From assembly GCA_030041095.1 (NCBI GenBank), contig JASHON010000030.1, positions 1-33,763 on the forward strand: a DNA stretch of 33,763 bases. Reading direction: 5' to 3'. The stretch is from Terriglobia bacterium. GTDB taxonomy: Bacteria; Acidobacteriota; Terriglobia; UBA7540. Below, piece after piece: positions 14,005 to 29,896 of the stretch. Positions within the stretch are counted from its first letter, which is position 1; each line of letters begins with the position of its first letter. Position numbers and translations under genes: made by a program. A model generated the notes under the pieces. The model was given only the letters and a program-made list of their open reading frames with translations, did no database searches and was not told the origin of the DNA.

Positions 14005-14541
14005 TTACTGATGGAACTTCCCGAGCGACTGCGCGCGGCAGCCGGCGCAAAGTTTTGTGCCCTTAAGGTCAATGAGTTCCACCGTGTGCGAAGCCGCCAT
14101 AGGGCATTCGTAATTCTGGCAATGCGTCAGGCCCAGTGTATGGCCGAGCTCGTGCACGGCCTCTTTAAGCAGACGAAGCTGGAGCAGGTCTTCGTCCGGA
14201 GGCAGTCCGAAAAATTCCTGGCGCAGCCGGTAAGTGGAAACGATGGCGCACGGCCCGTCCAATTGAGCTTCGCCGTAGACAAAGGTCAGGATGGGAATGT
14301 AGAGGTCAAGCGGCGTAATTCCGAGCAGCCGGTAGGAATTGGGCGCGAGGTAGGCTTGCATGCGTGCCAGGATCTCTGTGGAAAGATATTGCTGGCGTTC
14401 GGGATGAAGGGAGAATCGAGGATCAAGCTTAGCGGTGAGAATCTCGCAACGTACGCCAAACTCGGCGGTGAGCGCCGGGGCGAGCGTCCCGAGCCACGAA
14501 GGCTCCGCATCGCCGACGGGCAGGAGCTGAATCAGGCTCAT
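14005..14541 (-). CDS. amzA: Archaemetzincin-family zinc metalloprotease
   Basis: The 178-residue protein has the complete archaemetzincin signature HExxHxxGxxHCx4CxM: H130, E131, H134 and H140 form the zinc site, C141, C146, C165 and C168 a second zinc site, and M148 the Met-turn. The family is common in archaea and patchy in bacteria; it shows aminopeptidase-like activity in mammals, but the bacterial role is not established. Its ATG overlaps the stop of the upstream response regulator as ATGA, so translation is probably coupled. That places it in the same operon as the kinase and regulator. No signal peptide is visible, so it is likely cytoplasmic. Confidence 0.9.
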   Translation of the reverse strand: MSLIQLLPVGDAEPSWLGTLAPALTAEFGVRCEILTAKLDPRFSLHPERQQYLSTEILARMQAYLAPNSYRLLGITPLDLYIPILTFVYGEAQLDGPCAIVSTYRLRQEFFGLPPDEDLLQLRLLKEAVHELGHTLGLTHCQNYECPMAASHTVELIDLKGTKLCAGCRAQSLGKFHQ

Positions 14542-15890
14542 GGGCTTTCAACAGGTGTCCGCTTCCAACCATATTTTTTTAGTTTGTTGTGAAGGGTCAC
14601 GCGGTCGATATCCAGGACCGTGGCAGCCTGGGTTTGATTGCCGCCGCACGCCTCAACGACCCGGAGGATGTGAGCCCGCTCAGCTTCCTCGAGCGTTTGG
14701 TCGGCGCTTTCGGACGAGGCGAGCGTAAGGGAGAAGTCTTTTTCCCCAAGCTCTCCCTCTTGCGCTACCACCATCGCGCGTTCCACTGCGTTTTCCAATT
14801 CCCGCACGTTGCCCGGCCAACCGTAATGTTGCAACTTATCGACAGCCTCGCGGGAAACAGAACCCACCCGCTTATTCATTGACCCAGAGAATTTGCGGAT
14901 GAAGTGTTCAACGAGCAGCGGAACATCCTCCCGCCGGTCGCGCAACGGAGGAAGCTCAATCCGAAACACATTCAGCCGGTAGTAAAGATCGGGGCGAAAG
15001 AGGCCTTCCTCAAGCAGTTTCTCGAGGCTCTTGTTGGTCGCAGCGATGCATCGGAAATCCACGTGGATGGACTGATTCCCACCCACTCGCGTGATCTCAC
15101 GCTCCTGCAGCACGCGCAGCAAGTCCGTCTGAGTCTTAAGGCTGATGTCGCCAATTTCATCCAGAAACACACTTCCGCCGTCCGCGGTCTCAAAGCTTCC
15201 CTTGCGGCGGTATTGGGCGCCGGTAAAGGCACCTTTTTCATGGCCGAACAGCTCGCTCTCAAGCAAAGTCTCCGCAAGCGCTCCGCAGTGGATCACCACC
15301 AAGCGGTTATACTTGCGCGGACTGGCGGCGTGGATGGCCCGCGCGACCAATTCTTTCCCAGTTCCGCTCTCACCCGTAATCAGGGCCGTTGCCTCTGTGG
15401 GGCCTACCGTTACAATCGCCTCAAAGACGCGCTTCATCGCCGTGCTCTGGCCGATCAGCTCCGGCGGCCGGGCAACCTCCGCCACTGCTTCTCGCAAGCG
15501 GACGTTTTCCTGCTCCGCGCGCCGATGAGAGAGGGCATTTTGCACGGTATGCGTGATCTCATCCGGATCGAAGGGCTTGACCACATAATCATAAGCTCCG
15601 TTTTTGAGAGCGGTCACTGCCGTATCCACGGAGGCGTAGCCCGTCATGATGATCACAATCAGGTTGGGTTTGATCTCGCGAAGACGCCGTTGCAGCTCGA
15701 TGCCGTCCGTCCCGGGCATTTTGATGTCCAGCAAGGCCAGGTCCCACGGCTGCTGGGCTACCAGGTTCAGCGCTTCCCGCGCGCTCCCTGCCGTGCCAAC
15801 CTCGTAACCTTCGTCACAAAACCATCTGCCGAGCGAATCGCGAACGATGAGTTCATCGTCCACAATCAGTATGTTTCCCTTACTGCTCAT
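14538..15890 (-). CDS. NtrC-family sigma-54-dependent response regulator
   Basis: The 450-residue protein has a receiver domain (about 5-120) with acidic residues D11/D12 and phosphoacceptor D55 in LLDIKMPG. The AAA+ domain has Walker A GESGTGKE (173-180) and the sigma-54 contact loop GAFTGA (220-225). A Fis-type helix-turn-helix lies at the C-terminus ([21 protein letters not shown]). It should activate sigma-54 promoters by ATP hydrolysis when phosphorylated. The ATG at 15890 is preferred over an upstream TTG; it overlaps the end of the kinase gene by 11 bases, so the pair is co-expressed. Targets are unknown. I found no clean -24/-12 element in the divergent region near 18451-19128. Confidence 0.95.
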
Positions 15891-17529
15891 GTTTTGTGAG
15901 ACCTTCAATCAGAGGGCGTTCGACCGGAGCAAGCGATACGGCCTGCAACGGAAGTGTTACGGTGAACAACGTTCCCTTTCCCGGCCTGGATGCGACTTCG
16001 ATTTGGCCCTGGTGCCGCTCCACGATGATCCGGCTGATGGCCAAGCCCAATCCCAACCCGTGCCCTCGCTCCTTGGTGGTTACAAATGGCTCGAACATTT
16101 CAGGCAGCAGTTCGGCCGGAATGCCCGATCCATCATCCTGTACTTCGATTTGAACGTGGAGAGAATCTGCCGCTTTTCGGCTGCGCACTGTCAAGTTTCC
16201 GCCGCCCCGCATGGCATCGATTGCGTTCATGACCAATGCCAGGATCACTTGCTCGATTTGCGCCGGATCGCACCGAACGGACGGAAGGTGAGGCGCCAGC
16301 TCGAGATGGAGCTGAATGTTAGAGAGCTCGAGCTGATGCTGGACCAGCAGCACGCAGCGGTTCACGACTCCATTCAAATTGGCAAGCTCGTAGTTCATCG
16401 AAGTCGCACGAGCGAACGTCAACAGATTCTTAATGATTTCGCCGCAGCGCCGGCTTTCCGATTCAATCAGGTCCAGGGAGGCCATCGTCTCCGCGTGCTT
16501 CCCGCTGTTTTCTTTTGCGAAGTGTTTCTTCAGGAGTTTCGCGTAGGTAAGAATTCCGGCCAACGGATTGTTGATCTCGTGGGCGACGATCGCCGCCAGT
16601 TTGCCGATGGACGCCATTTTCTCCACGCGAAACATCTGCTCGTGCGCGCGGTCGAGTTCCTGGGTTTTCTGGTTGACGCGCGCCTCCAGGGTTTTCGTCC
16701 AGCCGGTGATTTCGTCACGGGCCTCATGGAGTTGCCGGCTCATCGAGTTGAACGAGCGCGCAAGATCCGCCAGCTCGTCGTGTGAAGGCACGTCAACCTG
16801 GTAACCCAGCTCACCAGAAGCCAAAATCTCTGTGCCCCGTTTCAAGGCTTTCAACGGCCGGTTCACGACGCGCCAGACAAAAGCCACGCTGAGCGAGCAG
16901 ATGACTCCAATGGCCAGGAACAGGTACCAGAGCAGGCGCTCCGTGCCTGCCGCCACGCTCGCGTCCGCGGCGGCGAGAGAAAGATCCGTGCTGAGAACTC
17001 CCAGTACCTTCTCACTGGCCGGATGGACGTGGCAGGACGCGCTCGAGCATTCGGGCGAATTCTCGATGGGATTGACCATCCCGAGCACGCGGTGGCCGCG
17101 GGCTACTCGGTAAATGCGAAAACGCTCCTGTGGCTTCCCGTGGGTGACCCGTTCCCCAGGTTTCTTAATGAACTCTCCGGTTTCCCGCGTGTCCGACGAA
17201 AAGCTGATGCGTCCCTGCTGGTTGATGACGCGGATTCGGACGATGCCCGGCTCGTTTCCCATCTCCGTGATGATGTGGCGGAGGCCGTCGCGCTGGTTAC
17301 GAAGCATGTAGTAATTCGTGCTCCGCTGAATGACGTCATTCATCCGCTCAGCGCTGGTGAGCGTGCTTTTCTCAAGCTCCTCCCTCTGAAGCTCGATGTT
17401 GAGGTAACCGAGCAGGGTGAAACCCACCATCATCAAGGCGATGAGGACAATGGCCAACTTGGCGCTGATGCTTCGCGCCGCACGCGCCCAACGCTTTGAG
17501 ATGGCCGCGGTGGCATCAGACAGGCGCAT
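15880..17529 (-). CDS. Membrane sensor histidine kinase with a CX4CH heme-like motif
   Basis: The 549-residue kinase has two membrane helices (about 23-44 and 199-218) around a periplasmic sensor. A HAMP domain (about 219-272), a coiled coil, and the phosphoacceptor H317 in VAHEINNPLAGI follow. The HATPase domain shows N-box NAIDAM, DDGSGIP and GHGLGLGLA. In the sensor, C161-SSAS-C166-H167 followed by VHP forms CX4CH, a spacing known in some c-type cytochromes, so the protein may carry covalently bound heme and sense redox state, NO, CO or O2. The alternative is a metal- or disulfide-based sensor. It overlaps the NtrC-type regulator, its obvious partner. The multiheme cytochrome operon is transcribed divergently about 1.6 kb away. 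Confidence 0.93.
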   Translation of the reverse strand: MRLSDATAAISKRWARAARSISAKLAIVLIALMMVGFTLLGYLNIELQREELEKSTLTSAERMNDVIQRSTNYYMLRNQRDGLRHIITEMGNEPGIVRIRVINQQGRISFSSDTRETGEFIKKPGERVTHGKPQERFRIYRVARGHRVLGMVNPIENSPECSSASCHVHPASEKVLGVLSTDLSLAAADASVAAGTERLLWYLFLAIGVICSLSVAFVWRVVNRPLKALKRGTEILASGELGYQVDVPSHDELADLARSFNSMSRQLHEARDEITGWTKTLEARVNQKTQELDRAHEQMFRVEKMASIGKLAAIVAHEINNPLAGILTYAKLLKKHFAKENSGKHAETMASLDLIESESRRCGEIIKNLLTFARATSMNYELANLNGVVNRCVLLVQHQLELSNIQLHLELAPHLPSVRCDPAQIEQVILALVMNAIDAMRGGGNLTVRSRKAADSLHVQIEVQDDGSGIPAELLPEMFEPFVTTKERGHGLGLGLAISRIIVERHQGQIEVASRPGKGTLFTVTLPLQAVSLAPVERPLIEGLTKHEQ

Positions 17530-17784: not shown

Positions 17785-18450
17785 CTAAGTGAGGAAGAAC
17801 TCTCGTAACAGGGTGTGCCAAGCATCGTCCGGAAGTTGCTCTGCTAAGTTATCGACAGCTCGTCCGCCATCCTGCGCCATGGCTCCGGAAAACCGGGACA
17901 TGCGTTTTCGCAGATGCGCGGACGCCTCCTCCATCCAACGGCTCGCCAGATCTCCATTGAGCAGGTTTCGAAAGTTCGTCTTGATGTCGGGAGCTACTAC
18001 CGTGATGAGCCAGCCCTCTCCGTAAGGATCGACGCCCAGCAGGCTGGGATTTGTGGCCAACGATTCGTTGATGCCCGTTACTTCTCCTTCGATGGGCGAA
18101 ACCAGCTCTGCCTTGGTCCCACCCCGCCCGACAGATGCGAACTTTTGGCCTTGGCGGAGCCATTGCCCTCGCTTTGGAAGAACCATCTCGTTCACCGTTC
18201 CAATCAGCCGCGCGGCAAACTCATCCAGCCCCACGCGGACGAAGTTGGGACTTTCAGCGAGCGCCCAGGTGTGGCCGGGATGGTAACGAAGGTTGCTCCT
18301 GACCTCGAATCCGGCCACTATAGCCGGCTTCACTGTGGGAGACTGCTCGGGCTCAATTTGAGCGGTTTGTTGGGGCACGGCCTTCCTGTGCCGGAGGTAA
18401 TTCACCAGCAGGAAAACCGCGAACGTTGCCAAAACCAGTATGACTGTCAT
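17785..18450 (-). CDS. Membrane-anchored GcvH-like protein lacking the lipoyl lysine
   Basis: The 221-residue protein begins with one N-terminal membrane helix (about 2-18), then a linker and a glycine-cleavage H-protein domain (about 50-175). Family landmarks are YHPGHTWA, VRVGLDEFAARLIGTV, SPIEGEVTGIN and NPSLLGVDPYGEGWL. The lysine that carries lipoate in true GcvH (ESVKAA) aligns with G111; the nearest lysine is K113, two residues off. It is therefore probably not lipoylated there and does not serve glycine cleavage. The C-terminal 45 residues are extra. The ATG at 18450 has AAGGAG upstream. It is the first gene of the kinase-regulator cluster and is divergent from the cytochrome operon, so a role in redox signalling or cytochrome function is plausible. 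Confidence 0.85.
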   Translation of the reverse strand: MTVILVLATFAVFLLVNYLRHRKAVPQQTAQIEPEQSPTVKPAIVAGFEVRSNLRYHPGHTWALAESPNFVRVGLDEFAARLIGTVNEMVLPKRGQWLRQGQKFASVGRGGTKAELVSPIEGEVTGINESLATNPSLLGVDPYGEGWLITVVAPDIKTNFRNLLNGDLASRWMEEASAHLRKRMSRFSGAMAQDGGRAVDNLAEQLPDDAWHTLLREFFLT

Positions 18451-19128: not shown

Positions 19129-20511
19129 ATGAAGCGACTGCTGAGATTTTTCGGATACGCCGGAACGCTGACGCTCGTCTTGGCAGGTGTACCCGGCGCT
19201 TACCTGTACGCTCAAAAACAGCCTGCACCCACTTCTCCACCCTCGGTGGCCTGGAAAGCTCCTTTGAGGGCCAAGCCGAGCGAGTACGTGGGTTCGATGG
19301 AATGCGCCGGCTGCCACCGAGCCGAAGCTCAAGCGTTTTTTAAGACGCCGCATGCGCACCTCGCCCAAGAAGTTCCCGTAGAACCCGCAACCCCGGCCAA
19401 ACCAGAGTCACCTTCCGTGGCTGCCGGAAGGAAGATTTATAACAACATGATGTGCGCGGGCTGTCACCAGATTGGCGGAAAGGGTGGGACCGCAGCACCG
19501 GCTCTGGACGACGTTGGGGCGCGCTGGACCCGTGCGCAGGTGATGCAACGAATGCTCGAGCGGCGTGCCGGCACGGTCATGCCGCCGCTCCCCTCCAACA
19601 TGCCGACCAGTCAAATCGACGATCTGGTGGACTACCTCATGACCTTGAAAGGAAAGCCCTCCGCCGAGGAAGCGCCGAGCACTGCCTTGACAGCCAAGAC
19701 GGTTGCCGGATGCGAAATGTGCCACGGGCCGGGCCGCGCGCACGCGGAGGCCGAGCAGGCTGCGGGCGGGAACGTTGCCAAACAGCTTGCCGCTGAAAAG
19801 CTGATTTTCAGCTTTAACGGGACTCCTCAACAAGACGCAGCTCGCTGTCTTTCCTGCCACATCAGCAGCGCCCACCAGCAGTTTTTCGATGAGTCTGTCC
19901 ATGCGATGCGAGGCGTATCCTGCAACTCCTGCCATGCCATCCACCTTGTTGCGGCGGTGACGAGGCCCAAAGATGTGGGGCTGAGCTTTACACAGGCCGA
20001 GTATTATTCCGTTCCTCAACTACCTGTGGAAAATCAATGGCTGCATGACGGGCTTCTGAAAGAACCGCAGCCGAAGCTCTGCTTCCAGTGCCACACGAAT
20101 GTTGAAGCGCAGTTCGCCATGCCTTTCCACCATCGGGTGCCGGAAGGGCTGATGAAATGCACCTCCTGCCATACGCCCCACGGCACGCTCACGGCTTTTC
20201 ATCAGTTGAATCAACCGGATTTTCAAGCGTGCGTGAAGTGCCACACCGAAGTGGGCGGGCCGTTTATTTACGAACACGCGGCGGTAAAAATCGTAGGCTG
20301 CGTGGGCTGCCACAACCCACACGGAGGTCCGAACCATTTCATGCTGGTCCGGAGAGAGACGCGGTTTATCTGCCTACAATGTCACACGGGATTCCATACT
20401 CAGGCCGTTGTGCCTCATGGGCCCTCGACATCGTTTGAAAATATGGGCGATTGCACGCGCTGTCACATTGCCATTCACGGCTCGAACTTTGATCCCGACT
20501 TCGTACACTGA
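19129..20511 (+). CDS. Undecaheme DmsE/MtrA-type cytochrome c with inserted class I cytochrome domain
   Basis: The 460-residue exported cytochrome has a signal peptide (about 1-28) and eleven CXXCH motifs, beginning at C59, C109, C195, C240, C265, C318, C344, C368, C391, C415 and C442. Ten fit the DmsE/MtrA decaheme pattern (for example CEMCHGPGRAH). The extra one, C109, lies in an insert of about 90 residues (95-178) that looks like a complete class I cytochrome c: GRKIYNNMMCAGCH, then an MPPLP Met ligand near 151. DmsE/MtrA proteins sit inside an outer-membrane barrel and wire periplasm to cell surface; the next gene encodes such a barrel. The ATG at 19129 has GGAGG five bases upstream and puts the signal peptide at the N-terminus. 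Confidence 0.93.
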   Translation: MKRLLRFFGYAGTLTLVLAGVPGAYLYAQKQPAPTSPPSVAWKAPLRAKPSEYVGSMECAGCHRAEAQAFFKTPHAHLAQEVPVEPATPAKPESPSVAAGRKIYNNMMCAGCHQIGGKGGTAAPALDDVGARWTRAQVMQRMLERRAGTVMPPLPSNMPTSQIDDLVDYLMTLKGKPSAEEAPSTALTAKTVAGCEMCHGPGRAHAEAEQAAGGNVAKQLAAEKLIFSFNGTPQQDAARCLSCHISSAHQQFFDESVHAMRGVSCNSCHAIHLVAAVTRPKDVGLSFTQAEYYSVPQLPVENQWLHDGLLKEPQPKLCFQCHTNVEAQFAMPFHHRVPEGLMKCTSCHTPHGTLTAFHQLNQPDFQACVKCHTEVGGPFIYEHAAVKIVGCVGCHNPHGGPNHFMLVRRETRFICLQCHTGFHTQAVVPHGPSTSFENMGDCTRCHIAIHGSNFDPDFVH

Positions 20512-20522
20512 AGGAGTCTCCG

Positions 20523-22583
20523 ATGAAAATACGCGCGCACCGCTCCTTTCTGATCCTGTTAGTCGGCGGTCTCATGGGGTCTGGCGGGCTGCTGGCGCAA
20601 GGGCAAAATGCGCTCGTGTCAGGGAATGCCGATCCACCTCAGGCGTCCGCGTCATCGCCGACACCGACATTCTGGCCGTTCCAGACCCAAGGTTCGGTCT
20701 CGATGGGCTACCGCTTTACCGACGTCACCGGCTACGAGCCGATGTATCTTGAACTGCTGGATCTCCAAAGCGGACCGCGCTTGACCGACTTCAGTATGTT
20801 CGGCGAGTCCACCACGAAAAATCCGTTCATCGATAGTTTTTCCCTGACCATGAGCGGATTGGGCGGCGACCCGTTTCCGACGGCGCAGTTGACGGCATCC
20901 AAGAACAACCTCTATAACCTCACGGCCCAGTGGTCACAAAGTTATTTTGATTACGCCCCCAACCAGAACGTGATTCTGCCGGGCGGCGTGCCCGGTCTCA
21001 CCAGTGAAAAATCGTGGGCTACCGTTCGAAAATTCGGCTCATTGGACTTTCTGCTTCACGCCACAAAGAACCTGCGGTTCTTGTTCGACTATTACCACAC
21101 TACGAACAGCGGGGCGACTTATACTGGGTTGGCGCCAGACTATTTGGGCGCCGGATATACCACGTGGGATTTCTTCGCCGAGGGCAGTCCTTATGTTCTT
21201 TACGCCCCGGAAGATGATGAAGCCAACCGATTCACCGGAGGAATCGATTACACTTTTGGATCCTGGAACTTCCATTACAAACTCGGCTATCAGACTGAAT
21301 CCGCAAACATGACGTTCAACAACACGTCTTCTCCGGAATACAGCTTTGACACCAGCGCCACGTTTACGGCGAACACGCCGCTCAACCTTTTTTCCATGAG
21401 CGAGTACCGGCATCTCACGGCGCCGATCAGCGAATTATCTTATACCGGGAGGCCGCTGCCCAAGCTTGATCTGCGCGGAAGCTACATCTATTACAGTTAC
21501 AGTGGCCCGGCCGATATGAACGAGCTCATCGAAGGTATCGCACCGACGAGCCTGTCTGAGACGAGCTTTGTGCCGTACACTCTTTCGCAAGAGGTCCGGG
21601 CAAATGTGAAAGAGCCTGACAACGTTTTCGATCAAGGGCTCACCTACCACGTCAAGAAGTGGTGGGCGATCGATGCCGACTATCGCTACGATCGATCCAC
21701 CGAGGACGGACTCGGTGTTTTTGCAGGGGTACTGAATGGCGCGTTGCTCGCCTCCAACGGCTCCGCAACAACCATGTGGCGCACCGGGCTGAGCGACCTT
21801 AATTTCGACATGGTTTTCACTCCAGTCCCCTCGTTGCTTCTTAGCCCAGGGGTGAGCTGGGACAACTCGAACGTTGAAGCCCTGGAGAACGGCGTCGTGA
21901 ATCCGGCCGAGACGCTGCGGTGGAATACGGTCGAGCCGGCCCTCAGCGCCTATTGGCAGCCTGCAAAGCGATTCAGCCTTCGTGGGGACATTCACACCTT
22001 TGACGCGGGCGCTTCGTATACGGCCATCACTCCGCATACCGAGACGACCGGCAACGTGGTGGCGCGTATTCTTCTTGCAAAAAAACTGACGCTCAACGAC
22101 ACTATCAATCTCTCCGGCAGCCGGCTGTTGGCGACGGCCTTTCAAAATCGTGTCCGAGGCAATTCCACTCTGCTCAACTACGCACTCAAGGACCGCTTTT
22201 CACTGTTTGGGGGACTTAGCTATGATAGCATCCTTGCGGAGGGTGACATCCAGTTCGCGGACGGTCCACCGGAGTTTTTGCGAGACCAGGAAGTCGACCG
22301 TGTCTGGCAAGGGGGACTTCAGCTCAACCCGGGTTATCACTTCGGCCTTCGCTTCACCGGCAACTATGACCGTTCAACAGGCGTAGGCTATATTACGGAC
22401 AACCGGCCTCCCTCCTATGGCCCTGAGACCTGGCCTTACGCGACGGCAACGGCCTTTTACGACTTCCCGAAGGCGGGCCGGCTCTCGATTGACTTACAAC
22501 GCACGTATTTTCTCGAGCAGATTGTGCCCGGCAATAATTTCGGCGCCGAGGTCCTTATGGTCCGATGGACCCGGAGCTTTTAG
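20523..22583 (+). CDS. MtrB/PioB-family outer-membrane beta-barrel
   Basis: The 686-residue protein has a signal peptide (about 1-26, ending LLAQG). The rest consists of alternating amphipathic strands rich in Tyr, Phe, Gly and Thr, without membrane helices. The C-terminus, LMVRWTRSF, ends in the Phe used for barrel assembly. It follows the DmsE/MtrA-like cytochrome after 11 bases with an AGGAG site. This order matches mtrAB, pioAB and dmsEF, where the barrel sheathes the decaheme cytochrome and lets electrons cross the outer membrane. The length matches MtrB-type barrels. Assignment rests on length, barrel pattern and gene pairing; no heme motif is present, as expected. Confidence 0.85.
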   Translation: MKIRAHRSFLILLVGGLMGSGGLLAQGQNALVSGNADPPQASASSPTPTFWPFQTQGSVSMGYRFTDVTGYEPMYLELLDLQSGPRLTDFSMFGESTTKNPFIDSFSLTMSGLGGDPFPTAQLTASKNNLYNLTAQWSQSYFDYAPNQNVILPGGVPGLTSEKSWATVRKFGSLDFLLHATKNLRFLFDYYHTTNSGATYTGLAPDYLGAGYTTWDFFAEGSPYVLYAPEDDEANRFTGGIDYTFGSWNFHYKLGYQTESANMTFNNTSSPEYSFDTSATFTANTPLNLFSMSEYRHLTAPISELSYTGRPLPKLDLRGSYIYYSYSGPADMNELIEGIAPTSLSETSFVPYTLSQEVRANVKEPDNVFDQGLTYHVKKWWAIDADYRYDRSTEDGLGVFAGVLNGALLASNGSATTMWRTGLSDLNFDMVFTPVPSLLLSPGVSWDNSNVEALENGVVNPAETLRWNTVEPALSAYWQPAKRFSLRGDIHTFDAGASYTAITPHTETTGNVVARILLAKKLTLNDTINLSGSRLLATAFQNRVRGNSTLLNYALKDRFSLFGGLSYDSILAEGDIQFADGPPEFLRDQEVDRVWQGGLQLNPGYHFGLRFTGNYDRSTGVGYITDNRPPSYGPETWPYATATAFYDFPKAGRLSIDLQRTYFLEQIVPGNNFGAEVLMVRWTRSF

Positions 22584-22680: not shown

Positions 22681-23028
22681 ATGGGAAAACTGTTCGGCAC
22701 TGCTGGTTTTGCATTTTTCTCGGTTCTCATGGCGGGCGCGACCCTGCTTTTGTCCGCTTCTCAATTGCACGCGGCCAGCGCTAAGTCCAATTACGATTCG
22801 AAGTGCGCAATGTGCCACGCTGAAAATGGAAGCGGCAAGACGCCCATGGGCAAAAACATGAATGTCCGCGACCTGCGGTCGAAGGCTGTTCAGAGACTGT
22901 CGAATCAACAACTCGAAGAGATCATCGCTAAGGGAAAGGGCGCGATGCCCGGCTACGCCAGCCAATTGAGCAAGGCTGAGATCAACGCCCTCGTCGCGTA
23001 TGTCCGCGAGTTGGCGAAAGAGAAATAG
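22681..23028 (+). CDS. Small monoheme class I cytochrome c, copy 1
   Basis: The 115-residue exported protein has a signal peptide (about 1-32, ending HAASA), heme motif CAMCH at 42-46, and a Met ligand at M89 in GAMPGYASQLS. It ends with the C-terminal helix INALVAYVRELAK typical of class I cytochromes c. It is probably a soluble periplasmic electron shuttle between the inner-membrane cytochromes and the DmsE/MtrA-like conduit. An AAGGAG site precedes the start; a GTG one codon upstream is also possible. It is clearly a paralogue of the next gene, with nearly identical heme and C-terminal regions. Confidence 0.93.
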   Translation: MGKLFGTAGFAFFSVLMAGATLLLSASQLHAASAKSNYDSKCAMCHAENGSGKTPMGKNMNVRDLRSKAVQRLSNQQLEEIIAKGKGAMPGYASQLSKAEINALVAYVRELAKEK

Positions 23029-23294
23029 CCGCAGGGCAGCTTGCCCGAGCCGCTGCCAAGGCGCAGGTCATCGTCGTGCGTCCTCATTGGAGATTTAGCG
23101 AGGCAAACAAGAATTTACGGGCCTGCACTGAAGGTGGCCGCGGTTGCGGTCTGCGGTGCTTCAATACGAAACCACAGGCAAGCCGCGGATGTGGGTGCGT
23201 GGCTGCCTGCCTGTCAGCCAGCAGGCTTTGGCGTCATCTACTGCGGGCGGGAGGCGTGCGCTTCCGCGCCCGTGGCTAACCTAAGGAGGTGAGA
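23029..23294. other. Spacer between paralogous cytochrome genes
   Basis: This 266-base gap contains no credible gene. A short stem (GCCTGCCTG...CAGCAGGC, about 23209-23228) is present without a T-run. The gap is long for an operon and could hold a secondary promoter. Confidence 0.5.
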
Positions 23295-23645
23295 ATGATT
23301 AAGAAACAGTTGTCTGCTGCAGGCTTTATCCTTCTATCGGTTCTCGTGGCGAGTGCCGCGCTGCTGTTATCGGCTGCTCCGTTGCATGCGGCCAGCGCGA
23401 AGTCAGATTACGACTCGAAGTGCGCTATGTGCCACGCAAGCGACGGAAGCGGTTCGACAGCAACAGGGAAGGCTCTTAACGTACCCGACTTGCGCTCGAA
23501 AGCCGTTCAAGCAGAGTCGAACAAGCAGCTCTACGAGATTATTGCCAACGGGAAGAGCCCGATGCCCGGCTACGCCAGCCAATTGAGTAAGGCTCAGATT
23601 AACGCTCTCGTGGCTTACATCCGCGCGCTGGCAAAAAAAAGATAG
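23295..23645 (+). CDS. Small monoheme class I cytochrome c, copy 2
   Basis: The 116-residue paralogue of the preceding cytochrome has a signal peptide (about 1-33), CAMCH at 43-47 and a Met ligand at M90 in SPMPGYASQLS. The mature parts share SAKS-YDSKCAMCHA, DLRSKAVQ and INALVAY, while loop residues differ, as expected of a tandem duplication that has diverged. The ATG at 23295 is preceded by AAGGAGGTGA, an extended Shine-Dalgarno match suggesting strong translation. It is probably a periplasmic shuttle with a redox potential or partner slightly different from copy 1. Confidence 0.93.
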   Translation: MIKKQLSAAGFILLSVLVASAALLLSAAPLHAASAKSDYDSKCAMCHASDGSGSTATGKALNVPDLRSKAVQAESNKQLYEIIANGKSPMPGYASQLSKAQINALVAYIRALAKKR

Positions 23646-23755: not shown

Positions 23756-25615
23756 ATGAGACTTCGCCGGCCGTGTGCGGCATTGCCGTTTTTCCCACTC
23801 TTGTTGGTCCTGACTCCGTCGGCGAACGGCGCGACTACTCTAGATTGCGCCACGTGCCACGTCCAGGAAGGTCAAGCCCTCAAGACATCGGCGCATGCGG
23901 GCATGAAATGCGCCACGTGCCACGTCGGGATCACCACTTTTCCCCATCCCTCAGGCGTTTCGTTACCCAAGTGTTCCCGCTGCCATCAACTTGAGGCGAC
24001 GGAGTGGGTTCACAGCATCCATGGAGTGGAATTCAACGCCGGAAACAAAGCAGCGCCCAACTGCCAGGTCTGCCACGGCGACGCTCATCATCTTTCGGTG
24101 ACGAAGACGTGGGCGTTTAAGAAATCCATCCCTCAGCTCTGCGGCGCCTGCCACGTCAAGCCGTTCACAAACTATAAAGCCAGCGTTCACGGCCAGGCAG
24201 TCCTGCGTGGAGTCACGCAAGCGCCAACCTGTACTTCCTGCCATACGGCGCATTTGATCCAACCACCTACGGTTCCCACCTCAACGGTTTATCCCACTCA
24301 AATCCCCAACACCTGTGGGAAATGCCATGGCGACGTCATGATGGAGCGTGAGTTCAACATCCCGAGGGGCCGCCTGACGAGTTATCAGGCATCCTTCCAT
24401 GGCTTGGCACTAAGAGAAGGCAATCTCACGGCAGCGAATTGCGCCAGTTGCCACGGGATTCACTTGATCCTGGCGGCGTCGAACCCCCACTCGACAATCA
24501 ACCCAAGAAACTTGCCAAAAACTTGCGGAAAATGCCATTCGGATGCAGGGATACGGTTTGCGATCACCCCCGTTCACGTGTTGCCGGGAATGAACGAGCC
24601 ACTGTCGGTTTCCTGGGTTCGAGGCTTTTACCTTGTGATCATTCCTCTGGTCGTCGGGCTAATGTTCGCGCACAACCTCGGCGACTGGATTCGCAAGCTC
24701 ATCAACCTTCGCATGCAGGAGATCCGGCAGGCAAGCCTTCCTCTCATTGGGCGGCCGCTTGTGCGCCGCCGCGAGGAAGCAGGCGCTACCCGGATGTACC
24801 GGTTTGAGCGTTTACAGCACCATCTTCTCTGGGTTTCCTTTCTCATTCTCGCTTGGACGGGCTTTTGCTTCCATTGGCCGCATGCGTTGTTTGCCGCTCC
24901 TTTTAACAATGCCGTGTGGGGCTGGCGGGTGCGCGGCGATATCCATCGCATTTTCGCCATGATCTTCATGGCAACGGGCGCTATTCACATCATCTCTTTG
25001 ATCCAGAGCCCGAAACTGCGACGTCATTGGAAGCTGCTTTGGCCCGAGAACCACGACGTGCAGGAAGCGATCAGCAATTTGGCCTACAACCTCGGCTTGC
25101 GCCGCGAGCGCCCGCCGCGCTCGATCCACAGTTACGTAGAGAAAGCCGAGTATTGGGCGTTAGTTTGGGGCGCCGTGTTGATGTCTCTGACGGGATTGAT
25201 GCTGTGGGGACGCAATTGGGTGTTACGGTTGCTCCCCATGCTTTCTCTCCAGCTTGCCAGCTCCATTCACTTTTTCGAGGCCGTGTTGGCGACGCTGGCG
25301 ATTCTGATATGGCACTTCTACTCTGTGATCTTCGATCCGGAAGTTTATCCGATGGATCCGGCGTGGCTGACCGGCCGCTCCGTCAAACCGGAACGGTCCG
25401 AGCCGGGAGAAGGACAGGAAGAGGCAGGGCCGGCTCCCCCAGCGAGTCCTGGGGCAATTGCAGAAAGCGGAGAATTGCAGAATCAGGCTCCGGGCGTAGC
25501 ATCGCCAGCGGAAACAACACGACAAGAAGAAGAGAAGGAAGAAGCGAAAGAACGGGGGGCAGACAAAGCTCATCATCCGGCTCCGGGCGACGGTCAGGGG
25601 AGAAAAAATGGCTGA
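23756..25615 (+). CDS. CbcL-like fusion: nine-heme cytochrome c plus b-type membrane domain
   Basis: The 619-residue protein has a signal peptide (about 1-25) and nine CXXCH motifs, starting at C31, C52, C73, C103, C129, C159, C187, C229 and C257. A membrane domain with about five helices (290-308, 355-374, 398-416, 467-485, 507-525) follows. Histidines in or near the helices (H355, H356, H397, H411, H505, H520) are candidate b-heme ligands. This nine-c-heme plus HydB/b561-type architecture matches CbcL of Geobacter, a quinol oxidase feeding extracellular electron transfer at low potential. The final 80 residues are a charged Pro/Glu-rich tail, unusual for the family. The gene overlaps the next by 8 bases. 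Confidence 0.88.
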   Translation: MRLRRPCAALPFFPLLLVLTPSANGATTLDCATCHVQEGQALKTSAHAGMKCATCHVGITTFPHPSGVSLPKCSRCHQLEATEWVHSIHGVEFNAGNKAAPNCQVCHGDAHHLSVTKTWAFKKSIPQLCGACHVKPFTNYKASVHGQAVLRGVTQAPTCTSCHTAHLIQPPTVPTSTVYPTQIPNTCGKCHGDVMMEREFNIPRGRLTSYQASFHGLALREGNLTAANCASCHGIHLILAASNPHSTINPRNLPKTCGKCHSDAGIRFAITPVHVLPGMNEPLSVSWVRGFYLVIIPLVVGLMFAHNLGDWIRKLINLRMQEIRQASLPLIGRPLVRRREEAGATRMYRFERLQHHLLWVSFLILAWTGFCFHWPHALFAAPFNNAVWGWRVRGDIHRIFAMIFMATGAIHIISLIQSPKLRRHWKLLWPENHDVQEAISNLAYNLGLRRERPPRSIHSYVEKAEYWALVWGAVLMSLTGLMLWGRNWVLRLLPMLSLQLASSIHFFEAVLATLAILIWHFYSVIFDPEVYPMDPAWLTGRSVKPERSEPGEGQEEAGPAPPASPGAIAESGELQNQAPGVASPAETTRQEEEKEEAKERGADKAHHPAPGDGQGRKNG

Positions 25616-27056
25616 AAAACGAAATGGCTTGAAAGGGTGGTCCGCTCCGTACGTCTACTTTTCAAGTAACTGGGTGAGTCGAGCCGGGGTGGTGATGGCT
25701 ACGACCGGAGCCATTCTGTGGTTTATCTTGCTCCCGGTCATCTTGCGCGGCTTTACTGGCGCACCCTATGCGGGGATCCTGACGTTCATCGCCTTGCCGA
25801 CGATTTTCTTCGGCGGGCTCATTCTCATCCCTGTGGGTATTCTTCTTCGGAAGCGGCGCGAGCACCAAAGGGGCCTCTACCCTGCGAATTTCCCGCCGCT
25901 GGACTGGAAAAATCCGCAGGTGCGGTATCTTTTGTTTTTTGTAGCTGTCACAACGGTAGCAAATGTGATTATTGGCTCTCAACTCGTCTATTCGGGCGTA
26001 AATTATACGGACAGTGTCACCTTCTGCGGCCAGACTTGCCACACTGTGATGCAGCCGGAATACGTGACGTACCGGCTTTCACCGCATGCCCGGGTTCCTT
26101 GTGTCGAATGCCACATTGGCCCGGGAGCTTCGTGGTTTGTGCGCTATAAGCTATCGGGCCTGTATCAGGTTTATGCGACCGTCTTCAATACGTATCCACG
26201 CCCCATCCCCGTCCCGGTCACCAATCTGCGTCCGGCCCGGCAGACGTGCGAGCAGTGTCACTGGCCGGCGCGGTTTGAAGGAAACCGGCTTGTTGTGATC
26301 CCGGAATACGCCGAGGATGAGCCTAACACGCTCACCAAAACGGTTTTGCTTATGCATGTTGGCGGTGGAGACGGGCGCGGCGGCATTCATGGCGCTCACG
26401 TCGGACCGGGAATCACCATCCGGTACGGATCTGATCCCAGCCGGCAGAAAATCCACTGGGTCCAATATACCGACACCACGACCGGTAAAACGACTCTTTT
26501 TGTGGACCAGACTACAAACCCGAAGTCCGTCAATCCGGCCACCGGGCGAGTGATGGATTGCGTTGACTGTCACAACATGCCGTCTCACATCTTCCACTTG
26601 GCTGGAGACGCCATGAACGATGCCATGGCACGAGGAATCATTCCGCCGTCGCTGCCCTATGTGAAAAAGGAAGGACTCGCCCTTCTAGAAGCCAAATATC
26701 CCAGCCAGCGGCAGGCTGCGCGAGAGATTTCCGCGGGACTTTTGGCCTTTTACCGCCAGAAATATCCAGCAACCTTCGCTCAACAGCGGACACAGATTGC
26801 CCACGCTGCGAAGGGCCTGGTGACGATTTACGACGACAATGTTTTTCCGAAAATGCATGTCACTTGGGGAACGTATCCGAACAACCTGGGCCACACGAAT
26901 TTCCCCGGCTGTTTTCGCTGCCACGGAACGCTGCACGAAGCCTCCAACCCAGCCAATATCGTGCCGATTGATTGCAGCGTTTGCCACGACGTCCTGGCCG
27001 TGGGCGAGGCTAAGCCCAAGATTCTGACAGAACTGGGCCTCGCCGGAAGCCCTTAA
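25608..27056 (+). CDS. NapC/NirT (ImcH-like) membrane multiheme cytochrome c
   Basis: The 482-residue protein has three N-terminal helices (about 27-47, 53-80, 106-127) followed by a periplasmic domain. Six heme motifs are visible: C140-GQT-C143... as CX3CH ending at H145, then CXXCH at C165, C214, C318, C435 and C456. The first motif, FCGQTCHTVMQPEY, is typical of NapC-like quinol dehydrogenases. The three helices and large domain resemble Geobacter ImcH, an inner-membrane cytochrome used with high-potential acceptors, though ImcH is described with seven hemes. Its ATG overlaps the upstream gene by 8 bases, so expression is coupled. Probable role: quinol oxidation at the inner membrane and electron delivery to periplasmic carriers. 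Confidence 0.88.
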   Translation: MAEKRNGLKGWSAPYVYFSSNWVSRAGVVMATTGAILWFILLPVILRGFTGAPYAGILTFIALPTIFFGGLILIPVGILLRKRREHQRGLYPANFPPLDWKNPQVRYLLFFVAVTTVANVIIGSQLVYSGVNYTDSVTFCGQTCHTVMQPEYVTYRLSPHARVPCVECHIGPGASWFVRYKLSGLYQVYATVFNTYPRPIPVPVTNLRPARQTCEQCHWPARFEGNRLVVIPEYAEDEPNTLTKTVLLMHVGGGDGRGGIHGAHVGPGITIRYGSDPSRQKIHWVQYTDTTTGKTTLFVDQTTNPKSVNPATGRVMDCVDCHNMPSHIFHLAGDAMNDAMARGIIPPSLPYVKKEGLALLEAKYPSQRQAAREISAGLLAFYRQKYPATFAQQRTQIAHAAKGLVTIYDDNVFPKMHVTWGTYPNNLGHTNFPGCFRCHGTLHEASNPANIVPIDCSVCHDVLAVGEAKPKILTELGLAGSP

Positions 27057-27739: not shown

Positions 27740-29896
27740 ATGGACAGCGTTGCAGTATTTACTCAGCAGGAACTCGGCAGGCGTCTTGCGCAGCTGCGGG
27801 AGGCCACCGCGACGAAACAGGCAGAATTAGCGGAGAGAATCACCTGGAGTGCGGCAGTCCTTTCACGCGTCGAATCAGGGGAGCGCGAGCTATCCCCAGA
27901 CGAACTAAACACGCTTTTGGAGGCGATAGGAACGCCGGATGCGCGACATCTGGCGACCGTATTGAATCGGAATTGGCAGATACTACGACGCCCCCCTCTC
28001 GATCATCCTGACCAAGATCTCTTATGGGAGGCGGAACAGGTCTGCTGCGCTCTGAACGAGCTTAGAGCGAGACCGGAGATTCGCCAAGCATTTGACCGGA
28101 GGTTAATCGAGTACCTTAGCTCGCTCCAAGAGACCGCGAAACTGATACTGGGAAGAGAGCACAAGGTCGCCTTTATAGGAAGCCTTGGCATCGGGAAGAC
28201 TACGCTGATCTCGAAGCTCACTGGATTGGAGACCACGCCTGTCGACGGAGGGCCTCCGACGACAGTCCTCGAAACTGGTGCGGGAGGAATCACCCTGTGC
28301 GATGTCTATTTGCGGACGGGACCAGTCTACGGCCTATTGGTCGACCCTTGTCCTGACGCGGAGATTCGACTCCATGTGCAGGATTTTGCTGAGCAGATAC
28401 TCGACAAGAGCATCTCCGATTGGGAGGACCCTAATGGTGACAGCGACCCCGCTGAAGGCATCGCGAAAGAGATCGAGCGTGCTGTTCGCAACTTGGCCGG
28501 TCTTAGAATACGCCGCGAGAAGGGACTCGACGGCAAAGCCGTTCGTCACGATGATGCAAAGGAGTTGGCCGCCCAGTTCACGTCACATCGAGAATATGCC
28601 GTGGAAGTCCTGGCGCGAATGAATCTTCACCGCCGGGACCGCCGGGAGGTATGGTACGACGCCAGTGTTGGGGAACCCCCTCTTGTTTGGTTGAAGGAGA
28701 TGTACGAGCAGGTGAACAATGGCAGGCACCCGGAGTTCACGCTGCCCAGCCGCATCGAGATCGTCGTTCCCCGGCAGCTCTTGGGCTCGACGGACTTGAC
28801 GGTCATCCTAATTGACACACGGGGAATCGACCGTACTGCGGCTAGAGCCGATTTGGAAAAGCATCTGGACGAACCGCACACGCTCGCGCTGTTGTGCTCA
28901 GGTTTTAACGACGCTCCTGGAACCGCCCCTCGTGCGCTGCTGGAACGCGCAAAATACGTTGGTGTTCAGGACATAGATCTCCATACCGCCGTTGTTGTTC
29001 TTCCACGTCCCGGTGAAGCCAAGGCCGTGAAGGACGAAGCGGGCACCCACGTGGAGTGTGACGAAGATGGGTACATGCTAAAGGGAGAGCAAGTTGCCAT
29101 GGCTCTCCAGCCTTTAGGTTTGGGCAAGCTAACCGTGAACTTCTTCAATGCCTTTCAAGATGAGCCTGCGAAATTGCAACAGACGATCCTGGCTTGCATC
29201 GAGAGGACTCGCGATAGCTTCCGACAAAACCTTCGTGATACGACTGCCAGTGCACGCGCGCTCAGTCTTAATTACGAGAAGGAACAGGTTCGGGAGGTTC
29301 TCCTTTCCGCCGCCCGTATGATGAAAACGTGGGCCGATCAGCACACTGCGATCCCCGCCTTGAGTGGGCACATTCATGATGACTTGATGAGGCAGCTTCA
29401 AAACGCGTATGCGAGTACCGTACGAGCTTCGGTTCGACGGCAGGGCGAGTGGCCCAACCTCAGCTATCAACACCAGCTGGGCTACGGTGCGCGGAGGCTG
29501 GCTGTAGTAGCGCTGGAGCCCTTGGTCAACGACTTTGTCGTCATTACGCAAACTATGGAAGCGAACCCAGACTACACTGACGCCACGGACCTTATTCAGC
29601 AGGCCCGCGGAGTGCTCAGGGCGGCGTTCGACGATTTCCTGCGCAAAGCCCAGATTATGGGCCAGACAGTGTTCACGAATGCTCTGAAGCTGGACCCCTC
29701 TTTTTGGGTGGAATGCAACCAGCAATGGGGCGGAGGACCGGGTTACAAAGACCGTGTTGCTGACAGGAACCAGGCGTGGTTCAGCGCACAGTCCCAGCGC
29801 GATTTAGAAAACCAGCTCTGGGGTGAAGTGCAGCGAGAATGGGCCGCGGTGCTACAGCGGTTGTCATCGCTGCTCGAAATCGACGCTTCAAGTTGA
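27740..29896 (+). CDS. HTH (XRE-like) fused to a dynamin-like GTPase
   Basis: The 718-residue protein starts with an XRE/Cro-type helix-turn-helix (about 10-66; ELGRRLAQLRE, ITWSAAVLSRVESGERELS). A GTPase domain follows, with P-loop GSLGIGKTT (147-155), a likely switch I threonine in PPTTV (172-176) and G3 motif DTRG (359-362). A classical NKxD is not evident. The G domain is split by a long insertion between P-loop and G3, and a helical region (about 470-718) follows, a layout recalling large dynamin-like GTPases. No membrane helix is present. The gene stands alone with strong AGGAGG and its own repeat-rich leader, between decayed gene fragments. Possible roles are a self-regulated stress or anti-phage GTPase; this is an inference. 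Confidence 0.8.
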   Translation: MDSVAVFTQQELGRRLAQLREATATKQAELAERITWSAAVLSRVESGERELSPDELNTLLEAIGTPDARHLATVLNRNWQILRRPPLDHPDQDLLWEAEQVCCALNELRARPEIRQAFDRRLIEYLSSLQETAKLILGREHKVAFIGSLGIGKTTLISKLTGLETTPVDGGPPTTVLETGAGGITLCDVYLRTGPVYGLLVDPCPDAEIRLHVQDFAEQILDKSISDWEDPNGDSDPAEGIAKEIERAVRNLAGLRIRREKGLDGKAVRHDDAKELAAQFTSHREYAVEVLARMNLHRRDRREVWYDASVGEPPLVWLKEMYEQVNNGRHPEFTLPSRIEIVVPRQLLGSTDLTVILIDTRGIDRTAARADLEKHLDEPHTLALLCSGFNDAPGTAPRALLERAKYVGVQDIDLHTAVVVLPRPGEAKAVKDEAGTHVECDEDGYMLKGEQVAMALQPLGLGKLTVNFFNAFQDEPAKLQQTILACIERTRDSFRQNLRDTTASARALSLNYEKEQVREVLLSAARMMKTWADQHTAIPALSGHIHDDLMRQLQNAYASTVRASVRRQGEWPNLSYQHQLGYGARRLAVVALEPLVNDFVVITQTMEANPDYTDATDLIQQARGVLRAAFDDFLRKAQIMGQTVFTNALKLDPSFWVECNQQWGGGPGYKDRVADRNQAWFSAQSQRDLENQLWGEVQREWAAVLQRLSSLLEIDASS

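Follow-up and report, generated by a model that had tools for sequence, protein, structure and literature searches.

We describe a complete class I cytochrome c domain lying inside an MtrA-type decaheme cytochrome, an arrangement that is a real and, in the openly licensed literature, previously unreported variant of the MtrA family. The gene occupies positions 19,129 to 20,511 of the window, by which we mean the whole stretch of DNA that was analysed (33,763 nucleotides, the whole of contig JASHON010000030.1 from the Terriglobia bacterium assembly GCA_030041095.1), and its product carries the class I domain between the first two hemes of the decaheme core. We think that the insert probably serves as a tethered periplasmic electron-exchange module on a conduit of the MtrAB/MtoAB/PioAB type. 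The gene and its parts are as follows.

19129-20511 (+): 11-CXXCH cytochrome of 460 residues, a DmsE/MtrA-type decaheme core with an inserted class I cytochrome c domain
19303-19317 (+): CAGCH of core heme 1 (residues 59-63), conserved in insert-less homologues
19360-19413 (+): N-side linker (residues 78-95), about 19 unconserved residues, many of them Pro, Ala, Ser, Thr, or Glu; predicted local distance difference test (pLDDT) below 50 at residues 82-90
19417-19650 (+): inserted class I cytochrome c domain (residues 97-174), from PF00034, the domain model, and structure matches
19453-19467 (+): CAGCH of the insert (residues 109-113)
19579-19581 (+): M151 of GTVMPPLP, putative axial Met ligand, invariant in seven inserts and free homologues
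19651-19710 (+): C-side linker (residues 175-194), rich in Pro, Ala, and Thr and running up to the core heme 2 motif; pLDDT below 50 at residues 176-189
19711-19725 (+): CEMCH of core heme 2 (residues 195-199), from a motif scan and an alignment of 32 relatives

The N-terminus of the protein looks like a signal peptide, and a Shine-Dalgarno-like GGAGGG stands four bases 5' of the ATG. CXXCH motifs begin at residues 59, 109, 195, 240, 265, 318, 344, 368, 391, 415, and 442, ten belonging to the core and one to the insert; C59 and C195 mark core hemes 1 and 2, and the insert heme is thus the second by sequence order. Residues 97-174 exceed the gathering score of the Pfam profile PF00034 (Cytochrom_C) and cover it in full (positions 1-90 of 90, E 2e-10); they also match a cbb3-subunit-III-type cytochrome c profile (E 2e-9), with the reading frame open across the insert. 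An earlier note on this DNA, made from its letters alone, had proposed a complete-looking class I domain between C59 and C195 of a DmsE/MtrA-type decaheme, and its coordinates (19,402-19,662, corresponding to residues 92-178) and residue numbers proved right. As to the decaheme assignment, the protein matches TIGR03508 (DmsE) at E 1.2e-54, its 185.6 bits falling just below the cut-off of 192.2, which three insert-bearing relatives exceed (L051, L052, and L053, with 212.5, 214.1, and 209.2), and in phmmer residues 309-454 match MtrA of Shewanella MtrCAB (6r2q chain A, E 5e-22). Similarity to the ExtS profile spans heme 1 and the insert at 39 bits, against a cut-off of 100.

Structure prediction points to a separate cytochrome fold, as the earlier note had expected. 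Modelled alone, the domain reached pLDDT 81.6 and a predicted template modelling score of 0.74, with helices at domain residues 14-25, 54-63, and 79-90; the model aligned with class I structures at Z 8-10.8 (Kustd1711, NorC, SoxX, and the caa3 cytochrome c domain) and with MtoD (4xxl) at Z 8.6, and Foldseek gave E about 1e-3 at best. The full-length protein, modelled with AlphaFold2 and without hemes, reached pLDDT 60.6. Its top Foldseek match was MtrA of the Mtr complex (6r2q_A, E 1.2e-5), with c6-type cytochromes making up much of the remaining list, and VIA-align, at this modest model confidence, placed MtrA at Z 7.7 over residues 50-448 (218 residues) and class I cytochromes over about residues 90-180. 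A class I cytochrome c fold is confidently predicted for the insert.

Heme ligands were assigned from the alignment of 32 relatives, in which ten histidines outside the motifs are near-invariant in the core (75, 205, 258, 272, 334, 335, 351, 383, 398, and 450). Exactly ten core CXXCH motifs with ten further conserved histidines are what would be expected for ten bis-His hemes, the number and ligation that the earlier note had given as normal for MtrA/DmsE proteins. Within the insert, H113 of CAGCH is the sole histidine, the Met of GT[VIL]MP (M151) is invariant in 7/7 inserts and in the free homologues, and M158 is unconserved across inserts. His113/Met151 ligation is therefore the natural reading and, judged from the sequences, a well-supported one, in agreement with the Met ligand that the earlier note had seen in MPPLP. 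The same note had called this heme higher in potential. Class I cytochromes typically lie at +200 to +250 mV (PMC11511738), and in the Mto pathway of Sideroxydans the class I His/Met cytochrome PmcA lies at -143 mV, the class I bis-His cytochrome MtoD at +155 mV, and the hemes of MtoA at about +100 to -400 mV (PMC13390432). Since PmcA and MtoD show that ligation does not fix potential, the claim of a higher potential does not follow from the Met ligand.

The search for the same insertion in DmsE homologues, proposed with the original observation, found it in frame in 7/39 genomes of the bacterial family, spread over five genera (G000, G010, G013, G017, G019, G031, and G037; contig ends truncate the genes in G013 and G019). 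The contigs of the named relatives come from Acidobacteriota metagenome-assembled genomes. Beyond these relatives, samples of the class and the phylum (~400 genomes each, in which only the best candidates per genome were scored, such that absence is no proof) yielded no insert, save free-standing homologues, and a scan of genome contigs gave no further insert-bearing loci. Close relatives lack the insert, including G001 of the same genus, and in insert-less relatives a short loop takes its place between the same landmarks, heme 1 with H75 on one side and the GCExCHGPG of heme 2 on the other. The flanking linkers, each 16-21 residues long, have many Pro, Ala, Ser, Thr, and Glu residues, are unconserved, and are modelled at low confidence. 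From this, the insert seems to be a tethered surface-loop domain and not a rebuilt heme stack. Purifying selection on it is evident in the close pair G031/G019 (nonsynonymous divergence, dN, 0.017; synonymous divergence, dS, 0.54).

Downstream of the decaheme gene, the operon continues with a candidate outer-membrane partner, two small cytochromes, and two membrane cytochromes.

20523-22583 (+): putative MtrB/PioB-like outer-membrane porin of 686 residues, 11 base pairs 3' of the decaheme gene; partner gene conserved in relatives
22681-23028 (+): small c6-type class I monoheme cytochrome 1 (PF13442, E 2e-14), in the clade of the G009 diheme N domain
23289-23645 (+): small c6-type class I monoheme cytochrome 2 (PF13442, E 1e-13), in the same clade
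23756-25615 (+): membrane protein with nine CXXCH motifs and a cytochrome b561-type domain (PF01292, E 4e-11), putative quinone oxidoreductase
25608-27056 (+): NapC/NrfH-type membrane cytochrome with five CXXCH motifs (PF03264, E 2e-7; TIGR03153, E 6e-13), overlapping the preceding gene

This order (decaheme, porin, one or more c6-type monohemes, multiheme/cytochrome b, NrfH-like) recurs whole or in part in relatives. In the arrangement that we propose, the decaheme would be the periplasm-to-surface heme wire of a porin-cytochrome conduit of the MtrAB/MtoAB/PioAB type, and flexible linkers would hold the class I cytochrome c in the loop that joins core hemes 1 and 2. By analogy with the homologue MtrA, this end of the wire should face the periplasm, as the earlier note had also supposed. 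MtrA protrudes about 30 Å into the periplasm and, in proteoliposomes, receives electrons from a soluble cytochrome (PMC5971433); in the Sideroxydans Mto pathway, MtoA interacts with the monoheme PmcA and not with the presumed partner MtoD (PMC13390432). The insert heme would probably trade electrons with the operon's small c6-type cytochromes, and electrons would pass between it and the first core hemes in one direction or the other. The wire would then have its partner bound covalently instead of meeting it by diffusive collision, and the insert would amount to a built-in counterpart of a monoheme partner such as PmcA, held by linkers beside hemes 1 and 2. That the domain swings, and that the tether brings any kinetic advantage, we infer.

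A diheme class I cytochrome in G009 ties the insert domain to the small cytochromes. This free protein of 217 residues (L050:3134-3784, minus strand) is encoded about 45 bases upstream of a decaheme that has no insert. Its C domain is 54% identical to the window insert (BLAST 1.7e-33, in a small set), and its N domain nests inside the operon's c6-type clade (95/89), with 42-44% identity to the window's two c6-type cytochromes. One polypeptide in G009 thus joins what elsewhere are a free cytochrome and a decaheme domain, which suggests that the insert domain and the c6-type cytochrome exchange electrons, the fusion being seen in one genome. Modular exchange at the periplasmic end of heme wires is likewise suggested, and the occurrence among relatives of decahemes with and without the insert, and of the same domain fused to a small cytochrome, amounts to a natural experiment, in which comparison of the forms would test the effect of tethering on rate, partner choice, or direction. 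This matters for MtrAB-type conduits in general, for which the picture of periplasmic partners and direction is still under revision (PMC13390432).

Several observations weigh against a tethered exchange module on such a conduit. The c6-type genes also stand beside insert-less decahemes, so the insert is dispensable for partnership with them; the idea of a docking module for the small cytochromes, raised in the earlier note, thus gains from the G009 fusion and loses from this dispensability. The fused diheme itself is known from a single genome. The weak full-length model (pLDDT 60.6, no hemes) leaves the distances from the insert to hemes 1 and 2 unreadable. Finally, the porin of the window genome has no significant family match in profile searches or in a sequence search of solved structures, and only one of nine homologues matches PF11854 (MtrB_PioB, 2.5e-4).

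As to direction, the product of 23,756-25,615 has a putatively CbcL-like architecture by motif and domain content, CbcL combining nine c-hemes with a b-type membrane domain (PMC9129911). Together with the NrfH-like gene, it points to quinol oxidation, and electron flow outward from quinol is suggested by these sequences. For the MtrC/OmcA family (TIGR03507), the window's own genome (95.5% complete) gave at best 20 bits against a cut-off of 209.3, and the lack of an MtrC-family match above the cut-off recalls MtoAB and PioAB. MtoAB and PioAB take electrons up. No cbb3 subunit I in the same genome reaches its cut-off.

These data also bear on other explanations of the insert. Its heme might be a rigid eleventh stop that either stacks between core hemes 1 and 2 or caps them, as its place between the two motifs in sequence would allow and as the rigid docking of the class I domains of NorC and SoxX, both among the matched structures, in their own complexes might lead one to expect; we regard this as unlikely, given the unconserved, Pro/Ala-rich, low-confidence linkers of 16-21 residues at its flanks and the insert-less relatives, which keep heme 1, H75, and heme 2 with a short loop, so that core stacking needs no insert. 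Gating was another suggestion of the earlier note, for which we found no evidence. In its fuller form, a redox valve, a high-potential His/Met heme would favour inward flow (uptake, Fe(II)-type oxidation) to a high-potential acceptor. The typical class I range (PMC11511738) does exceed that of the MtoA hemes (PMC13390432), and the genome resembles MtoAB/PioAB systems in having no MtrC/OmcA-family protein above the cut-off; PmcA, class I and His/Met at -143 mV, shows however that a potential cannot be assumed (PMC13390432), the two membrane cytochromes, CbcL-like and NrfH-like, suggest that quinol is oxidised and that electrons flow outward, and no cbb3 subunit I passes the cut-off, all of which makes a valve quite improbable in our judgement.

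We give little credence to a structural or assembly role (porin insertion or partner anchoring) with an incidental heme: patchy presence does indicate that the core works without the insert, but CXXCH and Met are kept in every complete insert and free homologue, which indicates that heme binding is maintained. Hardly any weight falls on the idea that misassembly or a frameshift error joined two adjacent cytochrome genes, a concern that G009, with the same domain in a separate gene beside its decaheme, might raise. Seven genomes from five genera share the architecture in frame, the frame is open and the domain is under purifying selection, and the domain is embedded within the decaheme, past heme 1, instead of being added at either end.

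Set beside known systems, the protein shares with Shewanella MtrA/DmsE (TIGR03508) its ten core hemes, sequence and fold matches, and an adjacent gene, here for a putative porin; it differs from Shewanella MtrCAB in the extra class I domain of about 80 residues, flanked by linkers, that separates hemes 1 and 2 in the sequence, and in having no MtrC-type partner above the family cut-off in the genome. MtoD of Sideroxydans lithotrophicus has the same class I fold as the insert, and the mto cluster (MtoD, PmcA) resembles the window operon in that separate small cytochromes are encoded in both; MtoD and PmcA, however, are free periplasmic monohemes, whereas the insert is covalently part of the decaheme, and MtoD is bis-His whereas the insert is, by sequence, His/Met. 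An MtrA-family cytochrome with an extra domain is also known as mtrA-DOMON from Group 6 mtrCAB clusters (PMC8805035), although that protein has nine hemes plus DOMON, is an accessory cytochrome beside mtrCAB, and lacks an inserted class I domain. Rhodopseudomonas PioA is likewise an MtrA-type decaheme with additional N-terminal sequence, but its extension is heme-free and precedes the hemes (PMC10654088). The G009 diheme shares the insert-like C domain, yet there it is part of a free protein and the neighbouring decaheme is insert-less. In the openly licensed literature we found no published MtrA that harbours a class I cytochrome between its first two hemes, and no published parallels for tethered cytochromes.

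On the core tree the presence of the insert is patchy, with at least three changes on well-supported branches. The tree of residues 230-460 groups the window protein with G030 and G001 (100/97, 100/100), and a clade of the window protein with G010 is rejected for these residues (p-AU, from the approximately unbiased test, 2.5e-6). The short N-terminus leans instead to G010/G037/G031 and weakly rejects a clade with the core sisters G001 and G030 (p-AU 0.043). Segment identities run the same way, residues 40-82 being 58-62% identical to the G010/G029 types versus 46% to G001/G030, and residues 320-460 being 76-87% identical to G001/G030 versus 52-67% to others. Recombination of the N-terminal segment is the simplest reading of this conflict, and the sequences are suggestive, with a short signal, of an N-terminal segment that recombined among relatives with or without the insert. 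The insert-less decaheme of G030 (L058:9888-11021, minus strand), whose N-terminus groups with G006/G022 (95/98) and whose core groups with the window protein, is another sign that N-termini have recombined in this family.

That the insert arose once and descended vertically along with the core gene is not supported, given the three or more changes and the conflicting N-terminal and core groupings. Derivation from the downstream c6-type cytochromes was rejected, the two lying on opposite sides of a 98/94 branch; the insert is 24-29% identical to the c6-type cytochromes versus about 50-55% to the G009 diheme C domain. In G151, of another family, the C domain of another free diheme cytochrome (L061:1495-1794, minus strand) is about 43% identical to the insert, and free diheme C domains of this type are possibly a wider source pool. 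A more general proposal, which we hold to be doubtful, is that Acidobacteriota outer-membrane heme wires carry a recombining N-terminal module, with lineages swapping heme-1 segments with or without the tethered class I cytochrome and the exchange partner either built in or free. If this were true, the potential of the insert would set the periplasmic partners of the conduit and perhaps the direction of its electron flow.

Other genes of the window were noted in passing. Divergent from the operon are a HAMP histidine kinase (15,880-17,529, minus strand) and a sigma-54 response regulator (14,538-15,908, minus strand); the sensor region of the kinase contains CSSASCH, a CX4CH motif, and weakly matches the Mcp40H-20 sensor domain (E 0.0018), and the kinase is possibly a heme-based sensor by its sequence. 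Adjoining these two-component genes is a GcvH-like protein (17,785-18,450, minus strand; E 3e-20) with an N-terminal hydrophobic segment, which falls below the NCBIfam GcvH family cut-offs. Just 3' of the cytochrome operon, 27,740-29,896 (plus strand) encodes a protein of 718 residues that has a helix-turn-helix at its N-terminus and weakly matches a dynamin-type GTPase. Near one contig end, 770-3,520 (minus strand) encodes a TrwC-type relaxase with an AAA helicase domain, which suggests a conjugative or integrative element there.
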